The position numbers and the translations under genes are program-made. Shown here in pieces: positions 2-8,927 of a stretch of DNA of 8,927 nt (its first letter is position 1; each line of letters starts with the position of its first letter). The notes under the pieces are model-generated. The model had not been told where the DNA came from and made no database searches. It saw only the letters and a list, made by a program, of their open reading frames with translations. Where the stretch lies: NCBI GenBank assembly GCA_001799195.1, contig MGSU01000165.1:606-9532 (forward strand). The letters run 5' to 3'. The stretch is from Deltaproteobacteria bacterium RIFOXYA12_FULL_61_11 (lineage in GTDB: Bacteria; Bdellovibrionota_F; JAHFAK01; YA12-FULL-61-11).

Positions 2-1972
2 GTGGGAGAAGAGTCCCCGACCCTCGATGAGCGCACGGTACGGCGGGAACCGCCGCGGGACGGACGGAAAGCCACGGCCGCGGGTACTATCGCCGACAAG
101 TACGAGATACTCTCGCCCCTGGGCTCCGGCGGTATGGGGGTGGTGCAGCTCGCCTGGGACAGGGTCCTGCGGCGCAAGGTCGTGCTCAAACGCATGCACT
201 ACGAGCTCGCCTCGACTCCCGGGTATCGCGAACGGTTCATGAACGAGGCTCGCGCCGTGGCAGGCCTCAAGCACCCCAACATCGTGGTGGTGCACGATCT
301 CGACTTCGACGAACAGGGTGCCTTCATGGTCCTCGAGCATGTCGAGGGAGAGGACTTGGCTTCCCTCCTCCAGCGCCGGGGCAGGTTGCCCTGGAAGGAG
401 GCCACTGCCTTGATCCGGCCACTCGCTGAGGGCCTCTACCACGCGCACCGCCAGGGGGTCTGGCATCGCGACGTGAAACCGGGCAATGTCCTCCTCGGGA
501 CCGACGGGACGGTCAAGCTGGTCGATTTCGGTATTGCCCGGACCCGGCATCAGCACACCTTCGGAGTCTCGGGCATGGGGACTCCGGCCTACATGGCCCC
601 GGAGCAGTTCCAGGAGGGCGAGCTGGTCGACCACCGGGCCGATGTCTTCGCCCTCGGCAAGCTCTGGCACCAACTCATCGCGGGGGGGAAACTCTCTCCG
701 CCAGGGCAGCCGCCTCGGTTGGAGGACTTGACCACGCTGGCCCCGGCAGGTCTGAACGCCATCCTGGCGCGCATGACCGCGGCAGATCCCGGAGCCCGCT
801 ACTATTCGCTGGGCGAAGTCCTCTTGGCGATCGAGGTGTTGCTCGAGGACCGAGACCGGACCGTGCCCCGGATCGAGGTGCAGCCGCGCCCCCGTTCGAC
901 CTATCGTCGGCCCATCTTACTCGCGGGTCTGCTCGCACTGGGTCTTGCTTTCTGGGTCTTGGATCGGAGACCACCTGCATCGTTCGAGGAACGGTTCGCT
1001 GTAGACCCGGGGAAGCCCGCGATCGAGCAGACGGTGGTGGAAGCCGAAGCCAGGGTTCAACCCTCTCCCCTCGGGGCTGAGAGCACCTCGCCGGCCTCGC
1101 CCCCCATCACCTCGCTTCAACCAGAACCTCGGCGCAAGGAGCTGCAGGCCCTGCTCGACGCGGGCAAGGTGGCAAGAGCCGCTGCCCTGCTCGAGGAGTT
1201 CGCGCGACGAGGCACGCTCGAAGATGACCTCGCGGCGCTGCGCCGGAGGGTCCTCGAGGAGGTGAACTACCGAAAGGATCATATGCCGGTCGTTCCCGCG
1301 GGCTGCTTCTCCATGGGGAGGCAGGACGGTCGCTACGACGAACAACCGGTGCACCCGGTCTGCCTCGAGGGTTTCCGGTTGGACCGGACCGAGGTCGAGG
1401 TCGGTGCATATCGTCGTTGCGTGCAGGCGGGTGCGTGCGCACCTCCGGTCGCCTACAGCGAGTTCTGCAACGACCGCCGACCTGGCGGAGAGACCCATCC
1501 GGTGAACTGCGTGTCCTGGCGGCACGCGGTGGAGTTCTGTCGCTGGCGCTTCGCCTCTCTATCGAGCGAAGCCCAGTGGGAGTTCGCTGCTCGTGGGCGT
1601 GGGACTCGGCTCTATCCCTGGGGCGAAGACCCTCCTGACTGTACTCGGTCCCACTTCTCCTCAGAGCGAGGACCAGGCTGCGGCGCGAGTGGTACTGCCG
1701 CGGCGTGCAGCCGGGAACCCGACCGGGCCGCCTTCTGCGATCTTGCCGGGAATCTCGCCGAATGGGTTCTTGATTGGTATAACGATGGGTACTATGCCCA
1801 CTCGGCGGAAAGGAACCCCTTGAACGAAGAGCAGAGCACCGAGAGGGTCGTGCGCGGCGGATCCTGGTACTCCAGGCCCGAAGAATTGGCGGCAACGGCG
1901 AGGTCTGCCCGGGTTCCGGCCGAGGCCAGCGATGTCATCGGGTTCCGCTGCGCCTCGCCGCTCGAGGATTGA
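2..1972 (+). CDS. Membrane-anchored Ser/Thr protein kinase with C-terminal FGE/sulfatase-modifying-factor-like domain
   Basis: Hanks-type kinase expected to transfer phosphate from ATP to Ser/Thr. Visible kinase features: Gly-rich loop GSGGMG (41-46), ATP lysine K63, alpha-C glutamate E82, catalytic HRDVKPGN (155-162), DFG (175-177) and GTPAYMAPEQ (193-202). The domain spans about residues 33-283 and looks catalytically complete. A single hydrophobic helix (about 303-320) follows an Arg-rich stretch, so the kinase should be cytoplasmic and the rest outside. Residues 322-420 are a Pro/Glu-rich then helical linker. Residues 427-653 match the FGE-sulfatase fold (MG..DGRYDEQPVHPV, SEAQWEFAARG, LAGNLAEWV, RVVRGGSW, GFRC). 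The two catalytic cysteines of true formylglycine-generating enzymes are missing (Ser624 and Leu629 in their places), so this is more likely a binding or sensor domain than an oxidase. The GTG start at base 2 lies against the window edge, so the true N-terminus may be further upstream. The next gene starts 2 bases after the stop, implying an operon. Confidence 0.95.
   Translation: MGEESPTLDERTVRREPPRDGRKATAAGTIADKYEILSPLGSGGMGVVQLAWDRVLRRKVVLKRMHYELASTPGYRERFMNEARAVAGLKHPNIVVVHDLDFDEQGAFMVLEHVEGEDLASLLQRRGRLPWKEATALIRPLAEGLYHAHRQGVWHRDVKPGNVLLGTDGTVKLVDFGIARTRHQHTFGVSGMGTPAYMAPEQFQEGELVDHRADVFALGKLWHQLIAGGKLSPPGQPPRLEDLTTLAPAGLNAILARMTAADPGARYYSLGEVLLAIEVLLEDRDRTVPRIEVQPRPRSTYRRPILLAGLLALGLAFWVLDRRPPASFEERFAVDPGKPAIEQTVVEAEARVQPSPLGAESTSPASPPITSLQPEPRRKELQALLDAGKVARAAALLEEFARRGTLEDDLAALRRRVLEEVNYRKDHMPVVPAGCFSMGRQDGRYDEQPVHPVCLEGFRLDRTEVEVGAYRRCVQAGACAPPVAYSEFCNDRRPGGETHPVNCVSWRHAVEFCRWRFASLSSEAQWEFAARGRGTRLYPWGEDPPDCTRSHFSSERGPGCGASGTAAACSREPDRAAFCDLAGNLAEWVLDWYNDGYYAHSAERNPLNEEQSTERVVRGGSWYSRPEELAATARSARVPAEASDVIGFRCASPLED
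1964..1968 (+). promoter_or_regulatory. Ribosome binding site deciding the start of the exported protein gene
   Basis: GAGGA lies inside the last codons of the kinase gene, 6 bases before ATG 1975. An in-frame TTG at 1969 would leave no spacing, so ATG 1975 is the better start. Placing the site inside the upstream gene suggests translational coupling. Confidence 0.6.
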
Positions 1973-1974
1973 CC

Positions 1975-3042
1975 ATGGCCACGTCGTTACTCCTGCTCGC
2001 GCTTCTCTTGGCCGGTCAGGCCTCCCTGGCTCAAACCAACGTGCTCAAGGACGTGCGGCTGCTCTCGGACACCCGGAGGCTGGAAGTGCAACTCGCCTTC
2101 CACGAACCGCCTCGTTACCACCATCGCTTCGAGGCGGATGAGCGCGGGCGGGTGATCGAGGTCTATCTCGAGATAGAGGATTGCGCTCCCTCGGCCAGAG
2201 CCGACGAGCTCCGGCCGGTCGATCCGGGGCTCGCTTCCCTGACCCTGCACCAAGGCGCAGACCGTCGACTCGGACTGAGCATGCGCGTGCAGGGGATCAG
2301 GGACTATCAGGTCACGGCGGCAGACGAACGCAGACTCAGGATAACCCTGCGGCGACTTCCCGAGGGCTTTGATGCAACCGAGGTGAGCAGAGCCGTCCTG
2401 CTCCATGCCGACCTGACCGGAGAGCTCGGGGGGATGAGGTTGAGGCTCCGCTTCGACCGGCGGGTCGAGGTCCGGCAGCGGCAAACCGAGGGTTTTGTCG
2501 AGTTACTCCTCGATCCGGTCAGCGCGCTTGAGGGCGCTCCGCTGCTTGAGGCCGGCGCGACGGTCGGTGCGGAGGAGCCGGGAGTGATCGTGCTCAGCTT
2601 TTCTGCGAGGCGCGAACCGCGGCACGAGCTTCGTGCCGAAGGCAGCGAACTGGTCGTCTTTCTCTCGGGTTTTGACGAGAGGGAGATCCTGGCTCGAGTG
2701 CGGCCTCGGACCTTCGAGCTGCGCCGATCGCTGCTCCTCGGGACGACCGGCGTGGGCCTGGGGGCCACGTTGGTGGCCCTCTTCGCCTCGAACCGCAAGC
2801 AGGCCCTCCAGGAGGACTATCGGGGCACGACCGATCCGGAGCGTTGGGAGAGCCTGGAAGGGGAGATGAACTCGTGGGCCACAGTCCAATCAGTGAGCCT
2901 GGTTACGGCCCTTACCGCCTTGTTCGTGGGCTCAGGTCTGGCGTTCATCCTCCCTCCGGAGCTGCACTATGACCCTCCCGAGGAGGTTGCCTTGGCCTGG
3001 CGGCCGGAGGACGGAACGCTACTTGTCTCCTTGCGCCGCTGA
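1975..3042 (+). CDS. Exported AMIN-like beta-rich protein with two C-terminal membrane helices
   Basis: This 355-residue protein is unnamed to me. Residues 1-19 form a signal peptide: a poly-Leu core ending ASLA, with likely cleavage before Gln20. Two beta-rich units follow, about residues 22-128 and 140-232. Each has alternating hydrophobic strands with spaced Arg/Glu (for example LEVQLAF and MRLRLRFDR), resembling AMIN domains, which bind envelope or peptidoglycan components; this assignment is tentative. Two hydrophobic helices follow (about 251-271 and 306-326), separated by a polar loop of about 34 residues containing DYRGTTDPERWESLEGEM, and then a short tail. This helix-loop-helix end resembles the C-terminus of some myxobacterial envelope (PEGA-type) proteins. 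It starts 2 bases after the kinase stop, so it is probably co-transcribed. It may be an envelope partner or sensor for the kinase (inference). Confidence 0.85.
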   Translation: MATSLLLLALLLAGQASLAQTNVLKDVRLLSDTRRLEVQLAFHEPPRYHHRFEADERGRVIEVYLEIEDCAPSARADELRPVDPGLASLTLHQGADRRLGLSMRVQGIRDYQVTAADERRLRITLRRLPEGFDATEVSRAVLLHADLTGELGGMRLRLRFDRRVEVRQRQTEGFVELLLDPVSALEGAPLLEAGATVGAEEPGVIVLSFSARREPRHELRAEGSELVVFLSGFDEREILARVRPRTFELRRSLLLGTTGVGLGATLVALFASNRKQALQEDYRGTTDPERWESLEGEMNSWATVQSVSLVTALTALFVGSGLAFILPPELHYDPPEEVALAWRPEDGTLLVSLRR

Positions 3043-3078: not shown

Positions 3079-4785
3079 ATGGTCGGCAGTACCAATGAGC
3101 AGGATACCGTCGCTCCGCGTGGTGCAGGTGCAGCACGTTCGCAGACCGGGAACGCGGCCAGCCTGACCGTGCTGTGGTCCCCGCATCCGGTCAACCTCGG
3201 TATGGTCTATACGTTCGAGCGGGCTATCCAACTCGGTCGCGGACTCCTGCCGATGGCCCAGGACGAAAGGATGTCGCGGCGGCACGCCACGCTCTCTCTC
3301 GATCCCGACGGTCTGGTCCGGCTGAGCGACCTCGGCAGCACAAATGGCAGCGAGGTCGATTTCGTGCCGGTTGGTGAAGCGGTGCTCGCCGACGGCGCGG
3401 TCCTGCTGTGTGGAGCTACCCTGCTGTTGTTCCGCGACGCCGGAACCACGCTGAAGTTCCTCGTGGAGAGCCCGGCTTTACTCGAACTCCCCGTTGGGGG
3501 AGACCTCGCCCCCTCTTCGCCGTTCGATTCCGAACTCGAGGAACTGGTCGACCCGGAGCGGCGCCGCGAGCTCGAAGCGCGGCTGTTGCGCTCGGTCACC
3601 GCCTTCAGGCGCGAAGTCAGTCCTCAATCCGGCGTTCGCTGGTGGCTCAACCGGAACGCGTATTTCCAACACGTCGGCTTGCCCGAAGCCGTGCGTTCTC
3701 GCGGAGGGAGGACGCTGCCGGGGTGTTCCCCCCTGCTCCAACGCCTCGGGGTTTCCTTGTCGAGGTATGCGGCTACCGATCACACGGTGCTGTTGCTCGG
3801 GGAGAACGGGGCGGGCAAGGAGATCGCGGCCGGCGTGTTGCACGCCAGGAGCGGTCGTCGGCAGCTCCCCTTCCAGGCGCTCAACTGTGCCATCTTCGAA
3901 CGGAACTTGCTCGCCGCAGAGCTGTTCGGTTATCGCAAGGGCGCCTTTACCGGCGCGGAGTTCGACCGCAAGGGCGCGATCGAGGAAACAGGCGGAGGTA
4001 CCCTGTTCCTCGACGAGGTCGGGGAGCTGCCCGCCGAGGTCCAGGCCTCGCTACTGCGCTTCCTGGAAACCCGCGAGGTCAAACCCCTGGGCGGCAAGAC
4101 GAGGCAGGCCGAGGTCCGGCTGATCGCCGCGACCAACCGCGATTTGGACGAGGCCCGGCGCAAGGGGACCTTCCGGGACGATCTGTACTACCGCCTGGCC
4201 CAGCTCCGCGTGGTGCTGCCGCCCCTGCGCGAGCACCGCGAAGACCTGTGGTATTGCTTGGTGGATCTGCTGCGCTCGCGAGGGTTGGCCGAGGATCCCT
4301 TGCCCTATCACGAACTCGAACCCGAGACGCGGTTTCAGGATACGGCCCAGTACCGTTTCCTGCGTTGGCTCTTTGCCAATCCATGGCGGGGGAACTACCG
4401 AGAGCTGCGCAATGCCCTCGAGAATCTGGTCGTCCAGGTGTTTACCGACTGGAAAAAAACCGGTGGCGGACGGGCCGCGCGGGTGCCCTGGGATCGCTGC
4501 TTGGCGGCTCTGTTGGAGGCCGATCCTGCTTATGCTTCATACCTCGGAACTCCGAAGTGGGGTCCTTCTCCCCAGGAACCATCGTCGGGTGGTGAGGAGG
4601 TGAGGCTCCCCGGTCATACGCTCTCCAAAGAGCAATTCCTCAGGGTTCTCGCAGCCAACGACTACACCATGTCGGCCGTGGCCAAGGCTTTGAAAGTGTC
4701 CCGACAGACCGTCTATGAGTACCTGAAACGGTTCGAGCTCGATGTCCACGAACTGCGCCGGGCGAAGAAAGGGGATCCGGAATGA
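3079..4785 (+). CDS. FHA-domain sigma-54-dependent transcriptional activator (bacterial enhancer-binding protein)
   Basis: A 568-residue activator that should use ATP hydrolysis to remodel sigma-54 RNA polymerase. Numbering is from Met at 3079. The FHA domain (about 45-120) keeps G53-R54, S66-R-R-H69 and the STNG loop (87-90), the residues that normally read phosphothreonine. Residues 120-213 are a Glu/Arg-rich linker with no domain I recognise. The AAA+ domain (about 214-455) has Walker A GENGAGKE (241-248), an intact GAFTGA loop (288-293) for sigma-54 contact, Walker B LFLDE (309-313), FRDDLYYRL with candidate arginine fingers (365-373), and GNYREL (sensor II region). A Fis-type HTH ends the protein (about 515-551; SAVAKALKVSRQTVYEYLKR). 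There is no receiver domain, so the input should be phosphothreonine binding rather than a histidine kinase. Lying just downstream of a Ser/Thr kinase, it is the obvious candidate output of that kinase (inference). A sigma-54 promoter candidate follows the gene. Confidence 0.95.
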   Translation: MVGSTNEQDTVAPRGAGAARSQTGNAASLTVLWSPHPVNLGMVYTFERAIQLGRGLLPMAQDERMSRRHATLSLDPDGLVRLSDLGSTNGSEVDFVPVGEAVLADGAVLLCGATLLLFRDAGTTLKFLVESPALLELPVGGDLAPSSPFDSELEELVDPERRRELEARLLRSVTAFRREVSPQSGVRWWLNRNAYFQHVGLPEAVRSRGGRTLPGCSPLLQRLGVSLSRYAATDHTVLLLGENGAGKEIAAGVLHARSGRRQLPFQALNCAIFERNLLAAELFGYRKGAFTGAEFDRKGAIEETGGGTLFLDEVGELPAEVQASLLRFLETREVKPLGGKTRQAEVRLIAATNRDLDEARRKGTFRDDLYYRLAQLRVVLPPLREHREDLWYCLVDLLRSRGLAEDPLPYHELEPETRFQDTAQYRFLRWLFANPWRGNYRELRNALENLVVQVFTDWKKTGGGRAARVPWDRCLAALLEADPAYASYLGTPKWGPSPQEPSSGGEEVRLPGHTLSKEQFLRVLAANDYTMSAVAKALKVSRQTVYEYLKRFELDVHELRRAKKGDPE

Positions 4786-4828
4786 GTCGGCCGTCCCTGT
4801 CCGATCGCCGGACATGTGCTCGGACTTG

Positions 4829-4848
4829 ACGGTAGCCATGGCCACCGT
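4829..4848 (+). promoter_or_regulatory. 20-bp near-perfect palindrome, candidate activator binding site
   Basis: The arms ACGGTAGCCA and TGGCCACCGT are reverse complements except for one pair (A4834 against C4843). It sits about 70 bases upstream of the -24 element at 4917 and about 95 bases before the predicted start site, a usual position for an enhancer of a sigma-54 activator. The binding protein is inferred, most simply the product of 3079-4785. Confidence 0.4.
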
Positions 4849-4916
4849 TTCTCGGCAACACTTTGAAAGACAAGGTCTTGAAGCCTTCGTGGCTTAGCGG
4901 TTACACCCGACGAGCA

Positions 4917-4932
4917 TGGTGTGGAGTTTGCT
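4917..4932 (+). promoter_or_regulatory. Candidate sigma-54 (-24/-12) promoter for the Kazal lipoprotein gene
   Basis: TGG (4917-4919) and TTGCT (4928-4932) give the required GG-N10-GC spacing, with G also kept at 4923. The CAC part of the -24 consensus is not matched. Transcription would start near 4943, giving a leader of about 67 bases before GTG 5010. The preceding gene encoding a sigma-54 activator strengthens the call. Confidence 0.45.
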
Positions 4933-4999
4933 CCCCGTGGCCGGTGATGGCATGATCGGGAGGCGGGGGCAATCGGCCCGTCCCTCCCTGCTCCTTCCT

Positions 5000-5005
5000 G
5001 GAGGA
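5000..5005 (+). promoter_or_regulatory. Ribosome binding site supporting a GTG start
   Basis: GGAGGA lies 4 bases before GTG 5010. The next in-frame ATG is at codon 16, inside the hydrophobic core of the signal peptide, so GTG 5010 is the only start that keeps a complete lipoprotein signal. Confidence 0.6.
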
Positions 5006-5009
5006 TTGC

Positions 5010-7181
5010 GTGAGTACGACCGTGCTCGTCCGATGGTGTCTGCTCCTACTCCTCATGGGAGCGTGCGAGAACAAGGTGTTCGTCGAGAACGCCCAGCGCG
5101 AGACCATACTGGCGACCCCGGTCGCTGAGGCTCAGAGCGCGGGAGAGGTCCTGGACCTGATGGCGGGCACGGAACTGGGCGGCGAGATTTACGAGCCCAA
5201 GCTCCGCGAGATCCTCGTGTTGGGCGGCTTCACCTTCGACGACCTGGCTTCCCCTCTCTATGTTGATGGGGAATCCCTGACCTTGCTCCAGCGGGGTTTA
5301 GCCGAGAAACGGACCTTTACCCTGGAAAAACTCTACCAACTCCTGCCGTACTTCGGATTGCTGCTCAAGGATGAAGCCTACCAGGACCTCGGACTCCCGA
5401 CCTTTTTAACCTGGCTCGAACGTTTCCGGACCGCCTATCCGGACTCGGGGCTTGCCGCCGAACCGCGGTATCTCCTCGAGCTGCTCTTCCTCGAGGCAGG
5501 GACGACGTGCAAGCCTGAGCAGCGCTTCGATGTCGTCCAGGCTCTGTTCTTCTATACCATGGTCTATTCGCTGCTCCTCGTCGACCCTGCTGCCGGATCC
5601 TTGGCGGTCGATGAGCGGGTTCTCAAGTTCTCCAGTCTCGGCACCACGTTGTTCGGAGCCTATCCCGAAGAGAGCAAGGTCACCGGGATCGGTCTCACCA
5701 AGGGATACAACCTCGGCCGGGTCCTCGACGGACTCGTCTTGCAACACGATCGGCAGGGCATTTTCCTGCCCGGGATCCACGGAGACACTTTCCCCGAGGA
5801 TGCTCTCGTGGTGGCGGTCTCCTTCGACCGGGACCTCGGCCCGGCCAGGTATCAGGCAACCTCCTTGAAAAGTCTGCTGAGGTATGGGGACACCAGCGCC
5901 CTCGGTTATCCCGGGGGTATCGCTTCCCCGTCCGTCGAACGCTTGATCCTCGACCTGCAACAGGTCGGGATCGGTGGTAACGATACCGCGACCGAACTCG
6001 ACCAAGTGGTTCGACTGTGCACGGTTTTTCAGTATGTCGCCGGAGAACCGGCCTTCGACTTGGCCATCACGCAAGCGCTCGGCGAAGTTGGCCTGACGGC
6101 GACCGCGGACACGGCCTTGGCGGTGAACGACCCGGAGTCCCTGGCAACGCTCCGCGAGGAGGTCCAGGCTTCCTCCGAGCTGACCCTCGAGCAGTTCCTG
6201 CGCTTGTTGCCGCTGCTCGGCTTGGCCCTCCGCGACGAAGCCGGTGCTCCCCTCGAAGTCGGGACCTCGATCGCCTGGTTGGAGGCCTTTCGCGCCTCGT
6301 ACCAGACCCAGGCGTTCTCCCCCGAGGTGAAGCTCTTGCTCGACTACGTCTTCCTCGACCTGGGTCCGCGTATCGAGGGAGCAGACCGTCTCGACCCGCT
6401 CCAGGCGCTCTTCTTGTACGTGGTTTTCCAGGCAGCGGTGGAAGCAGGGCAACAGCGGCTCGGCCCGGCTAGGTTCTTCCTCGCGAACCCGACCGAGGGA
6501 GGTGCGGTACTCTGTCCCCTCGGGGATGCCTTCCTCTCCCTGGCTCCCGTCCCCCTCTCCTTGTTGGGGGTTCCCCTGGGACCTGCGCGTTCCGTGGGCA
6601 TGGCTCTGCCCTGCCTCCACAGTGCTTACGAGGGGGCGCCGGTGGCGATGTCCGGCATGACGGTCGGGGTTGAGGGAGTCTTGAAGGTCTGCATCGATCC
6701 AACTGCGGCACCAGGAGAGCGGGTGGCGGTCGATCGGCTCGCGACCCCCGCGGGGAGCGGGGAGGATGATCCCTTGTTCGAGTTGATCGACGACTGGTTG
6801 GGTGAGTTCGACTACGAGGACCCGCTCGGCGGCACGGGGGGGGACTTTCTCTGCGGTTGTTACGAGGTCGATGCTCCGGTCTGCGGGGTGGATGGGAAAA
6901 CGTATCCCAATGCCTGCGAGGCCGACTGCGAGGAGGTCGCGATAGCTTCTACAGGGGCTTGCGGACAGACCGGACAAGCAGGTTCGGCGAGGCCGTGCGG
7001 CGAGGCCGACTTCTGGCCGGCCACGGGAGCCTGTTCCGTCCTCCAGGACGGGGTGCTGTTCAGCGCGGTGGAGTGGGTCAAGATCGGGCAGTGTACCGGG
7101 GGCATCGCCCCTCCGGCACCCGGTCTGGAACGGTGTTCCGAGCTCTTCAATGACCTCGCTCTCCCGCTTCCCGCGGAGTAG
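5010..7181 (+). CDS. Kazal-domain lipoprotein with an internal duplication
   Basis: A 723-residue lipoprotein of unknown function. Residues 1-19 form a lipoprotein signal: a short basic region, a Leu-rich core and MGAC with Cys19 as the likely acylated residue (Met at -3 is unusual). The mature body is mostly helical and acidic. Residues 88-190 and 376-478 are copies of one another at a constant offset of 288 residues without gaps; over 104-183 about 40% of positions are identical by eye count. Both copies share TLE..., LLP..GL, DEA, W-L-E-x-F-R and QALF. The duplication may extend weakly to about 60-280 and 348-570. A canonical six-cysteine Kazal domain (Cys 615, 617, 625, 636, 640, 651; PVCGVDGKTYPNAC core) follows, then a tail with four more cysteines. 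Kazal domains commonly inhibit serine proteases, so the exposed part may block a protease, but the inhibitory loop specificity cannot be read here. The sigma-54 promoter candidate upstream suggests regulated expression. The 3' end overlaps the convergent methyltransferase gene by 35 bp. Confidence 0.9.
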   Translation: MSTTVLVRWCLLLLLMGACENKVFVENAQRETILATPVAEAQSAGEVLDLMAGTELGGEIYEPKLREILVLGGFTFDDLASPLYVDGESLTLLQRGLAEKRTFTLEKLYQLLPYFGLLLKDEAYQDLGLPTFLTWLERFRTAYPDSGLAAEPRYLLELLFLEAGTTCKPEQRFDVVQALFFYTMVYSLLLVDPAAGSLAVDERVLKFSSLGTTLFGAYPEESKVTGIGLTKGYNLGRVLDGLVLQHDRQGIFLPGIHGDTFPEDALVVAVSFDRDLGPARYQATSLKSLLRYGDTSALGYPGGIASPSVERLILDLQQVGIGGNDTATELDQVVRLCTVFQYVAGEPAFDLAITQALGEVGLTATADTALAVNDPESLATLREEVQASSELTLEQFLRLLPLLGLALRDEAGAPLEVGTSIAWLEAFRASYQTQAFSPEVKLLLDYVFLDLGPRIEGADRLDPLQALFLYVVFQAAVEAGQQRLGPARFFLANPTEGGAVLCPLGDAFLSLAPVPLSLLGVPLGPARSVGMALPCLHSAYEGAPVAMSGMTVGVEGVLKVCIDPTAAPGERVAVDRLATPAGSGEDDPLFELIDDWLGEFDYEDPLGGTGGDFLCGCYEVDAPVCGVDGKTYPNACEADCEEVAIASTGACGQTGQAGSARPCGEADFWPATGACSVLQDGVLFSAVEWVKIGQCTGGIAPPAPGLERCSELFNDLALPLPAE
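5271..5579 (+). repeat. Internal repeat unit, copy 1 (protein level)
   Basis: Encodes residues 88-190 of the Kazal lipoprotein. It aligns without gaps to copy 2, which lies 864 bases downstream. Shared landmarks include TLE (104-106), DEA (121-123), W135 and QALF (177-180). The similarity is in protein rather than DNA, so the duplication is old. Confidence 0.75.
6135..6443 (+). repeat. Internal repeat unit, copy 2 (protein level)
   Basis: Encodes residues 376-478. Landmarks matching copy 1 are TLE (392-394), DEA (409-411), W423 and QALF (465-468). Confidence 0.75.
6852..6962 (+). other. Kazal-type domain coding segment
   Basis: Cysteine spacing C-x1-C-x7-C-x10-C-x3-C-x10-C, with the PVCG.DG.TY.N.C core, is diagnostic of the Kazal family. 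The first spacing (x1) is the short, non-classical form common in bacterial examples. Confidence 0.9.
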
Positions 7182-8673: not shown

Positions 8674-8927
8674 ATGCATCACCCAAACCTCGAACGGAAT
8701 GTATTCCTGCCGTTGCTGATCCTGTTGCTCGCCATGAGCTTCTCGGTCGTGAGCTGCGGAGGTGACAGCAAGAAGGATAGTGACGCCTCGGACGACGCCT
8801 CGAGCGATTTCTTGTATGACGAGAGCGGCGATATCATCCGGAATCCCGATGGAACCCCGGTCATCCCCGGTCAGAACGGCCAATCCGGGACCGCTGGGAC
8901 GGCAGGTGCGGCAGGTGCAGCCGGTGC
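8674..8927 (+). CDS. Lipoprotein with collagen-like Gly-X-Y repeats (3' end outside window)
   Basis: The first 84 residues are present and the gene runs off the window. A lipoprotein signal is clear: a Leu-rich core, then FSVVSC with Cys28 as the acylated residue. An Asp/Ser/Lys-rich acidic spacer follows (SKKDSDASDDASSD), then a short DESGDIIRNPDG segment. From Gly66 the chain becomes regular triplets (GQN, GQS, GTA, GTA, GAA, GAA). Such Gly-X-Y stalks are known in bacterial surface lipoproteins, where they can form triple helices or extended spacers. The triplets here are Ala/Thr-rich with no proline in the repeat, which would weaken a collagen helix. The downstream domain and true function are unseen. 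It is read in the same direction as the Kazal lipoprotein but is separated from it by the methyltransferase gene. Confidence 0.85.
   Translation, partial: MHHPNLERNVFLPLLILLLAMSFSVVSCGGDSKKDSDASDDASSDFLYDESGDIIRNPDGTPVIPGQNGQSGTAGTAGAAGAAG
8869..8927 (+). repeat. Start of Gly-X-Y triplet repeat
   Basis: Nine-base units encode Gly-X-Y, six complete triplets before the window edge, with near-repeated GCAGGTGC units in the last 25 bases. The tract probably continues beyond the window. Confidence 0.75.

Follow-up and report, generated by a model that had tools for sequence, protein, structure and literature searches.

A probable sigma-54 promoter and a candidate activator-binding palindrome between an FHA-type activator gene and a Kazal lipoprotein gene from an almost unsampled phylum

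FHA-domain enhancer-binding proteins of Myxococcus xanthus were reportedly described by Jelsbak, Givskov and Kaiser in 2005. For activators of other kinds, a comparison comes from Desulfovibrio, where the largest class of promoters has its nearest activator site no more than 100 nt away; in Desulfovibrio vulgaris, one-component activators have an adjacent target operon, and their upstream activating sites (UAS) are sometimes palindromic (PMC4641369). More generally, Francke et al. 2011 assigned sigma-54 a controlling role at the bacterial exterior, with its promoters concentrated before envelope and lipoprotein genes (PMC3162934).

Here, we examine a locus in which an FHA-type activator gene is followed by a lipoprotein gene. 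We propose that the gap between them is a sigma-54 control region: an activator bound to a palindrome at 4829-4848 would drive a promoter at 4917-4932. The promoter is probably real, while for the model as a whole we see the chances as even.

The window (the whole stretch of DNA that we analysed, 8,927 nucleotides) is C165:606-9532, from an assembly of 4.64 Mb that is 87% complete. The genome encodes one RpoN and about 26-33 sigma-54 activators. An Rfam search of the window gave no matches. The features that we discuss are:

2..1972, + strand: Ser/Thr protein kinase with a C-terminal FGE-sulfatase-like domain (Pfam Pkinase, 6e-41; FGE-sulfatase, 6.8e-42)
1975..3042, + strand: 355-aa protein of unknown family, either exported or a membrane protein (hydrophobic N-terminus)
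3079..4785, + strand: FHA-type sigma-54 activator (bEBP), 568 aa (Pfam FHA, 4.7e-8; Sigma54_activat, 3.5e-56)
4829..4848, no strand assigned: 20-bp palindrome ACGGTAGCCATGGCCACCGT, candidate upstream activating site or enhancer (sequence, inverted-repeat scan)
4917..4932, + strand: -24/-12 element TGGTGTGGAGTTTGCT, probable sigma-54 promoter (sequence, matrix score, genome calibration)
4999..5012, + strand: GGAGG ribosome-binding site, followed by the lipoprotein gene's GTG start at 5010 (sequence)
5010..7181, + strand: lipoprotein with one Kazal-type domain, 723 aa, the predicted target gene (Pfam Kazal_2, 9.9e-5, at its cut-off)

The kinase gene starts upstream of the window (the gene call begins near -70) and is the probable first gene of the activator operon. 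The gene for the 355-aa protein, which has no Pfam match, is tightly spaced to its neighbours on both sides. Since the genes for the kinase, the 355-aa protein and the activator are closely spaced, they are probably one operon.

Judging by its sequence, the activator appears to be intact. It has an FHA domain, an AAA+ domain and a C-terminal helix-turn-helix. The AAA+ motifs are present (Walker A, GENGAGKE; GAFTGA; and Walker B, LFLDE), as are the signature residues for phosphothreonine binding in the FHA domain (LGRG, SRRH and STNG). The C-terminus matches HTH_23 (2.3e-5), slightly short of that model's curated cut-off, and it aligns with the helix-turn-helix ends of the genome's other activators.

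The activator's stop codon ends at 4785, and a gap of 224 bp (4786-5009) separates it from the lipoprotein gene. GTG 5010 is the earliest start in the lipoprotein's frame and has a good ribosome-binding site, and the protein's N-terminus (MSTTVLVRWCLLLLLMGAC) is consistent with a lipoprotein signal. The match to the Kazal domain is weak. Further downstream, a convergent methyltransferase gene on the - strand overlaps the 3' end of the lipoprotein gene by 35 bp (7147-7181). At 8674-8925 lies the start of another probable lipoprotein, with an LSVVSCGG-like signal; its collagen-like glycine repeats (GTAGTAGAAGAAG) are reached at the end of the window.

The preliminary description read the sequence at 4917-4932 as a TGG-N8-TTGCT element with GG-N10-GC spacing. 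This spacing is indeed correct: GG is at 4918-4919, followed by ten bases and then GC at 4930-4931. The predicted transcription start (+1) is about 4943. A generic core matrix gives the element a score of 13.8. On the full consensus YTGGCAC-N5-TTGCW it scores 13.0 of 19.9 bits (this matrix is approximate); its -24 box is TGGTGT instead of TGGCAC. The motif in the gap is clearly above chance: at the rate seen in coding DNA, about 0.008 matches to TGG-N8-TTGCW are expected on one strand of the 224-bp gap. No sigma-70-like promoter was found in this gap. We also noticed a second inverted repeat (GGGAGGCGGGGGC / GCCCGTCCCTCCC) at 4958-4988, in the predicted leader and just 5' of the ribosome-binding site. 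A structured leader at 4943-5020 was rejected, as its fold is unexceptional (z = -0.66).

Our search of the phylum covered two genomes, the window's own and one other, and that other genome has no ortholog of the lipoprotein. A search for the activator outside the window's genome found only distant activator domains. Since the phylum has two genomes and no close relative was available, we calibrated the promoter motif within the window's own genome. We used about 1.16 Mb, in stretches that were chosen without regard to the motif, and called genes with a simple hexamer model. A strict form of the motif, TGGYRYR-N4-TTGCW, showed no genome-wide enrichment (26 matches versus 22 in the reversed control), so we calibrated by the orientation of the gaps instead. 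Promoter-oriented gaps contain 32 matches to TGG-N8-TTGCW versus about 5 expected, or about 6-fold enrichment (2.3e-4 per base). Reversed gaps contain 3 (3.3e-5 per base) and are not enriched; the rate in the genome's coding DNA is 3.7e-5 per position. Furthermore, the distances from the motif to the start codon cluster at 29-60 nt, and at 15-60 nt there are 21 matches versus 0.84 expected. Given the enrichment by orientation, the clustering of distances and the presence of RpoN, TGG-N8-TTGCW is a working promoter class in this genome. At 61-150 nt, which is the range of the window's site, there are 7 matches versus 1.24 expected, and, this far from the start codon, about four-fifths of the matches should be real. 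Among gaps that were not picked by the motif, a core-matrix score of at least 13 was found in 14/326 promoter-oriented gaps and 0/230 reversed gaps. With this calibration, simple -24/-12 motifs become a usefully reliable guide in the window's genome.

By our own simple rule based on hydrophobicity and the lipobox, 18 of the 27 genes behind the motif encode proteins that look exported; among the other genes that have a gap upstream, the count is 115 of 479 (odds ratio 6.3, p = 7e-6). Motif promoters are also found near activators: 8 of 24 activator genes have one within two genes, versus 60 of 655 distant genes (p = 0.0013). Similarly, scores of at least 12 occur in 8/48 promoter-oriented gaps that adjoin activators (the window's gap included), versus 14/326 elsewhere and 1/230 reversed gaps. 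The Kazal lipoprotein, with its gene beside an activator gene, fits both trends.

The sampled part of the genome encodes three other FHA activators (L068:8993-10684, L069:1554-2972 and L079:2322-4178). Their genes likewise have neighbours that encode exported proteins or lipoproteins, including an M23 peptidase and an OmpA-family lipoprotein. No strong match to TGG-N8-TTGCW was found before the exported-protein genes that adjoin these three activators.

As for the palindrome, the preliminary description gave it one mismatched pair and placed it about 70 bases upstream of the TGG. Both statements hold: 9 of its 10 pairs are complementary, with A4834/C4843 as the sole mismatch, and 68 bases lie between the palindrome and the TGG. 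Its centre lies upstream, about 78 bp from the -24 element and about 104 bp from +1. The distance was also said to be normal for an enhancer and its promoter, and it does match Desulfovibrio, where activator sites are most often within 100 nt of the promoter (PMC4641369). In the window's genome, 20-mer palindromes with at least 9 pairs are found in 8/431 gaps, and their frequency is 8.8e-5 per position in gaps versus 6.1e-5 in coding DNA. Palindromes of this quality are weakly non-random, and the chance of one in a gap like 4786-5009 is about 2%. Most activators use two or more sites. No second copy of the palindrome is present within the 224-bp gap, no close copy is found elsewhere in the genome (across 18 positions, even the nearest sequences have at least 2 mismatches, and their number barely exceeds the control level), and there is none in the only other genome of the phylum. 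We rejected the palindrome as a regulon motif because neither the genome nor the relative has further close copies. We give even chances to the prediction that the palindrome is an enhancer to which the adjoining FHA activator binds.

A similar layout is found elsewhere in the genome, and its best second example, again in a gap beside an activator, is L089:11418-11575. There, activator L089_9 is followed by a perfect 22-bp palindrome (GTACTAAGGTATACCTTAGTAC) and then, 66 bp on, by a consensus promoter (TGGCACAAACGTTGCT). That palindrome is unique in the genome. The layout recurs more weakly at L080 and L071. Overall, in a small test, inverted repeats with p ≤ 0.1 lie above 5/11 activator-adjacent promoters (a count that includes the window's locus and counts one divergent gap twice, with each p from 40 shuffles) versus 2/28 other promoters. 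Both of the latter are copies of a dispersed repeat. Inverted repeats above promoters in L050 and L096 were rejected as enhancers, as they are this dispersed repeat.

The dispersed repeat is about 130 nt long, with ends TTCAGTCTTGGGTGG and CCACCCAAGACTGAA and a nearly invariant hairpin, CCCCCACCATGCTCATNCTTGCGCGTGGYGGGGG. There are 71 copies genome-wide. All 17 of the copies that we sampled (including L126:6375, L096:5069 and L050:5017) are in gaps, and for most of these copies the flanking genes are divergent; some copies hold an extra inserted module. No Rfam family matches the repeat above threshold, and the phylum's other genome does not contain it. The repeat is probably a MITE-like element.

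We considered that neither element might be functional. Both could be chance occurrences in a GC-rich gap, with an unrecognised promoter, or else read-through out of the activator operon, accounting for the lipoprotein's expression. No terminator lies between the two genes, and their order on the same strand permits read-through. The strict form of the promoter motif is at the control level, as described above. Furthermore, the element at 4917-4932 is atypical for this genome and resembles chance matches in its flanks and its distance from the start codon: it ends 77 nt before GTG 5010, versus the cluster at 29-60 nt; A+T makes up 34% of its spacer and 15-base flanks, where other promoters average 55%; and A+T is just 20% in the 15 bases 3' of the -12 box. 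A flank-inclusive matrix, built from 21 other sites, ranks the element below all 21 and below 89% of chance matches in coding DNA, but this matrix mostly separates A+T-rich gaps from coding DNA, and the window's contig is GC-rich (65%). GC-rich gaps still show 11 promoter-oriented matches to the motif (4917-4932 included) and 0 reversed. The small number of chance matches expected in the gap also argues against this explanation, as do the adjacent activator and the exported target, which both match the genome's pattern. We think it unlikely that neither element functions. On a manual weighing of its distance and flanks, its type of target and the adjacent activator, we consider 4917-4932 to be quite probably a real sigma-54 promoter. 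This reading is well supported by the genome-wide enrichment of TGG-N8-TTGCW, the presence of RpoN, the exported targets and the proximity to activator genes.

Even with a real promoter, the palindrome could be a chance occurrence or another regulator's site, in which case the FHA activator would bind elsewhere or a different activator would drive the promoter. About 2% of such gaps would hold an equal palindrome by chance, this one is single in its gap and unique in the genome, and there are many activators (the genome's total is about 26-33) to choose from. However, the arrangement of palindrome, promoter and activator is seen again at L089 and, in weaker form, at L080 and L071, and the distance from palindrome to promoter is normal for an enhancer. 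This alternative strikes us as a reasonable possibility, if on the doubtful side. The palindrome might instead be the terminator hairpin of the activator operon: it lies 44 nt past the activator's stop codon and could fold into a CATG-looped stem that contains one mismatch, at about -9 kcal/mol in isolation. But only three T follow it, no intrinsic terminator-like site was found in the gap, and the gap's minimum-energy fold, which is unexceptional (z = -1.55), does not include the hairpin. For these reasons we rejected the terminator, which we consider highly improbable.

Returning to control by the FHA activator, we infer that the promoter at 4917-4932 is used, that the palindrome is a binding site with the FHA activator as its binder, and that the kinase provides input to the FHA domain. 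RNA polymerase with RpoN would park at 4917-4932 in a closed complex. The activator, probably switched by the Ser/Thr kinase of its own operon, would bind upstream, with the palindrome at 4829-4848 as the best candidate site. Once bound, it would loop to the promoter, where its AAA+ domain would melt the DNA, and transcription of the lipoprotein gene would begin near 4943. The preliminary description had suggested that the activator controls the lipoprotein gene. The sigma-54 promoter in this suggestion is strengthened by the calibration, RpoN and the intact activator, while the palindrome's role as the enhancer is plausible but unproven.

The kinase, as a product of the same probable operon, would be the natural partner for the FHA domain, and we predict that they interact. 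A route from kinase to activator is supported by a fusion in the same genome: L080:5562-9749 encodes a single protein of 1395 aa that has a Ser/Thr kinase at the N-terminus and a sigma-54 activator with a Fis-type HTH at the C-terminus, together with TPRs. This gene adjoins two divergent genes for exported proteins, both of which have TGG-N8-TTGCA motifs. It may be, at about even chances, that the main role of sigma-54 in this phylum is to control exported proteins and lipoproteins, by way of many activators that are often encoded beside their targets and that include kinase-linked FHA types and the kinase-activator fusion. The window would then hold one module of kinase, FHA activator and lipoprotein. 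The mechanism is textbook sigma-54 control in an ordinary module, and sigma-54 control of exported proteins has been proposed before; what the locus adds is to tie a Ser/Thr kinase and an FHA activator to a concrete candidate promoter in a lineage that is almost unsampled and for which we identified no cultured model.

Like the FHA activators of M. xanthus, the window's activator combines an FHA sensory domain, a sigma-54 AAA+ domain and a DNA-binding helix-turn-helix. Unlike them, it comes from a different and almost unsampled phylum, its gene lies downstream of one for a kinase that carries an FGE-sulfatase-like domain, and its predicted neighbouring target is a Kazal lipoprotein. As in D. 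vulgaris, the activator gene is beside its predicted target, and a palindromic candidate site is near a probable sigma-54 promoter (PMC4641369). The D. vulgaris sites draw support from cross-species conservation and, in some cases, from binding assays (PMC4641369), while the window's candidate site is known from one genome's sequence. Unlike the set of Francke et al. 2011 (PMC3162934), the window's genome is from a lineage that is represented by two genomes; as in their view of sigma-54, the motif in this genome favours exported proteins, with the odds ratio of 6.3.
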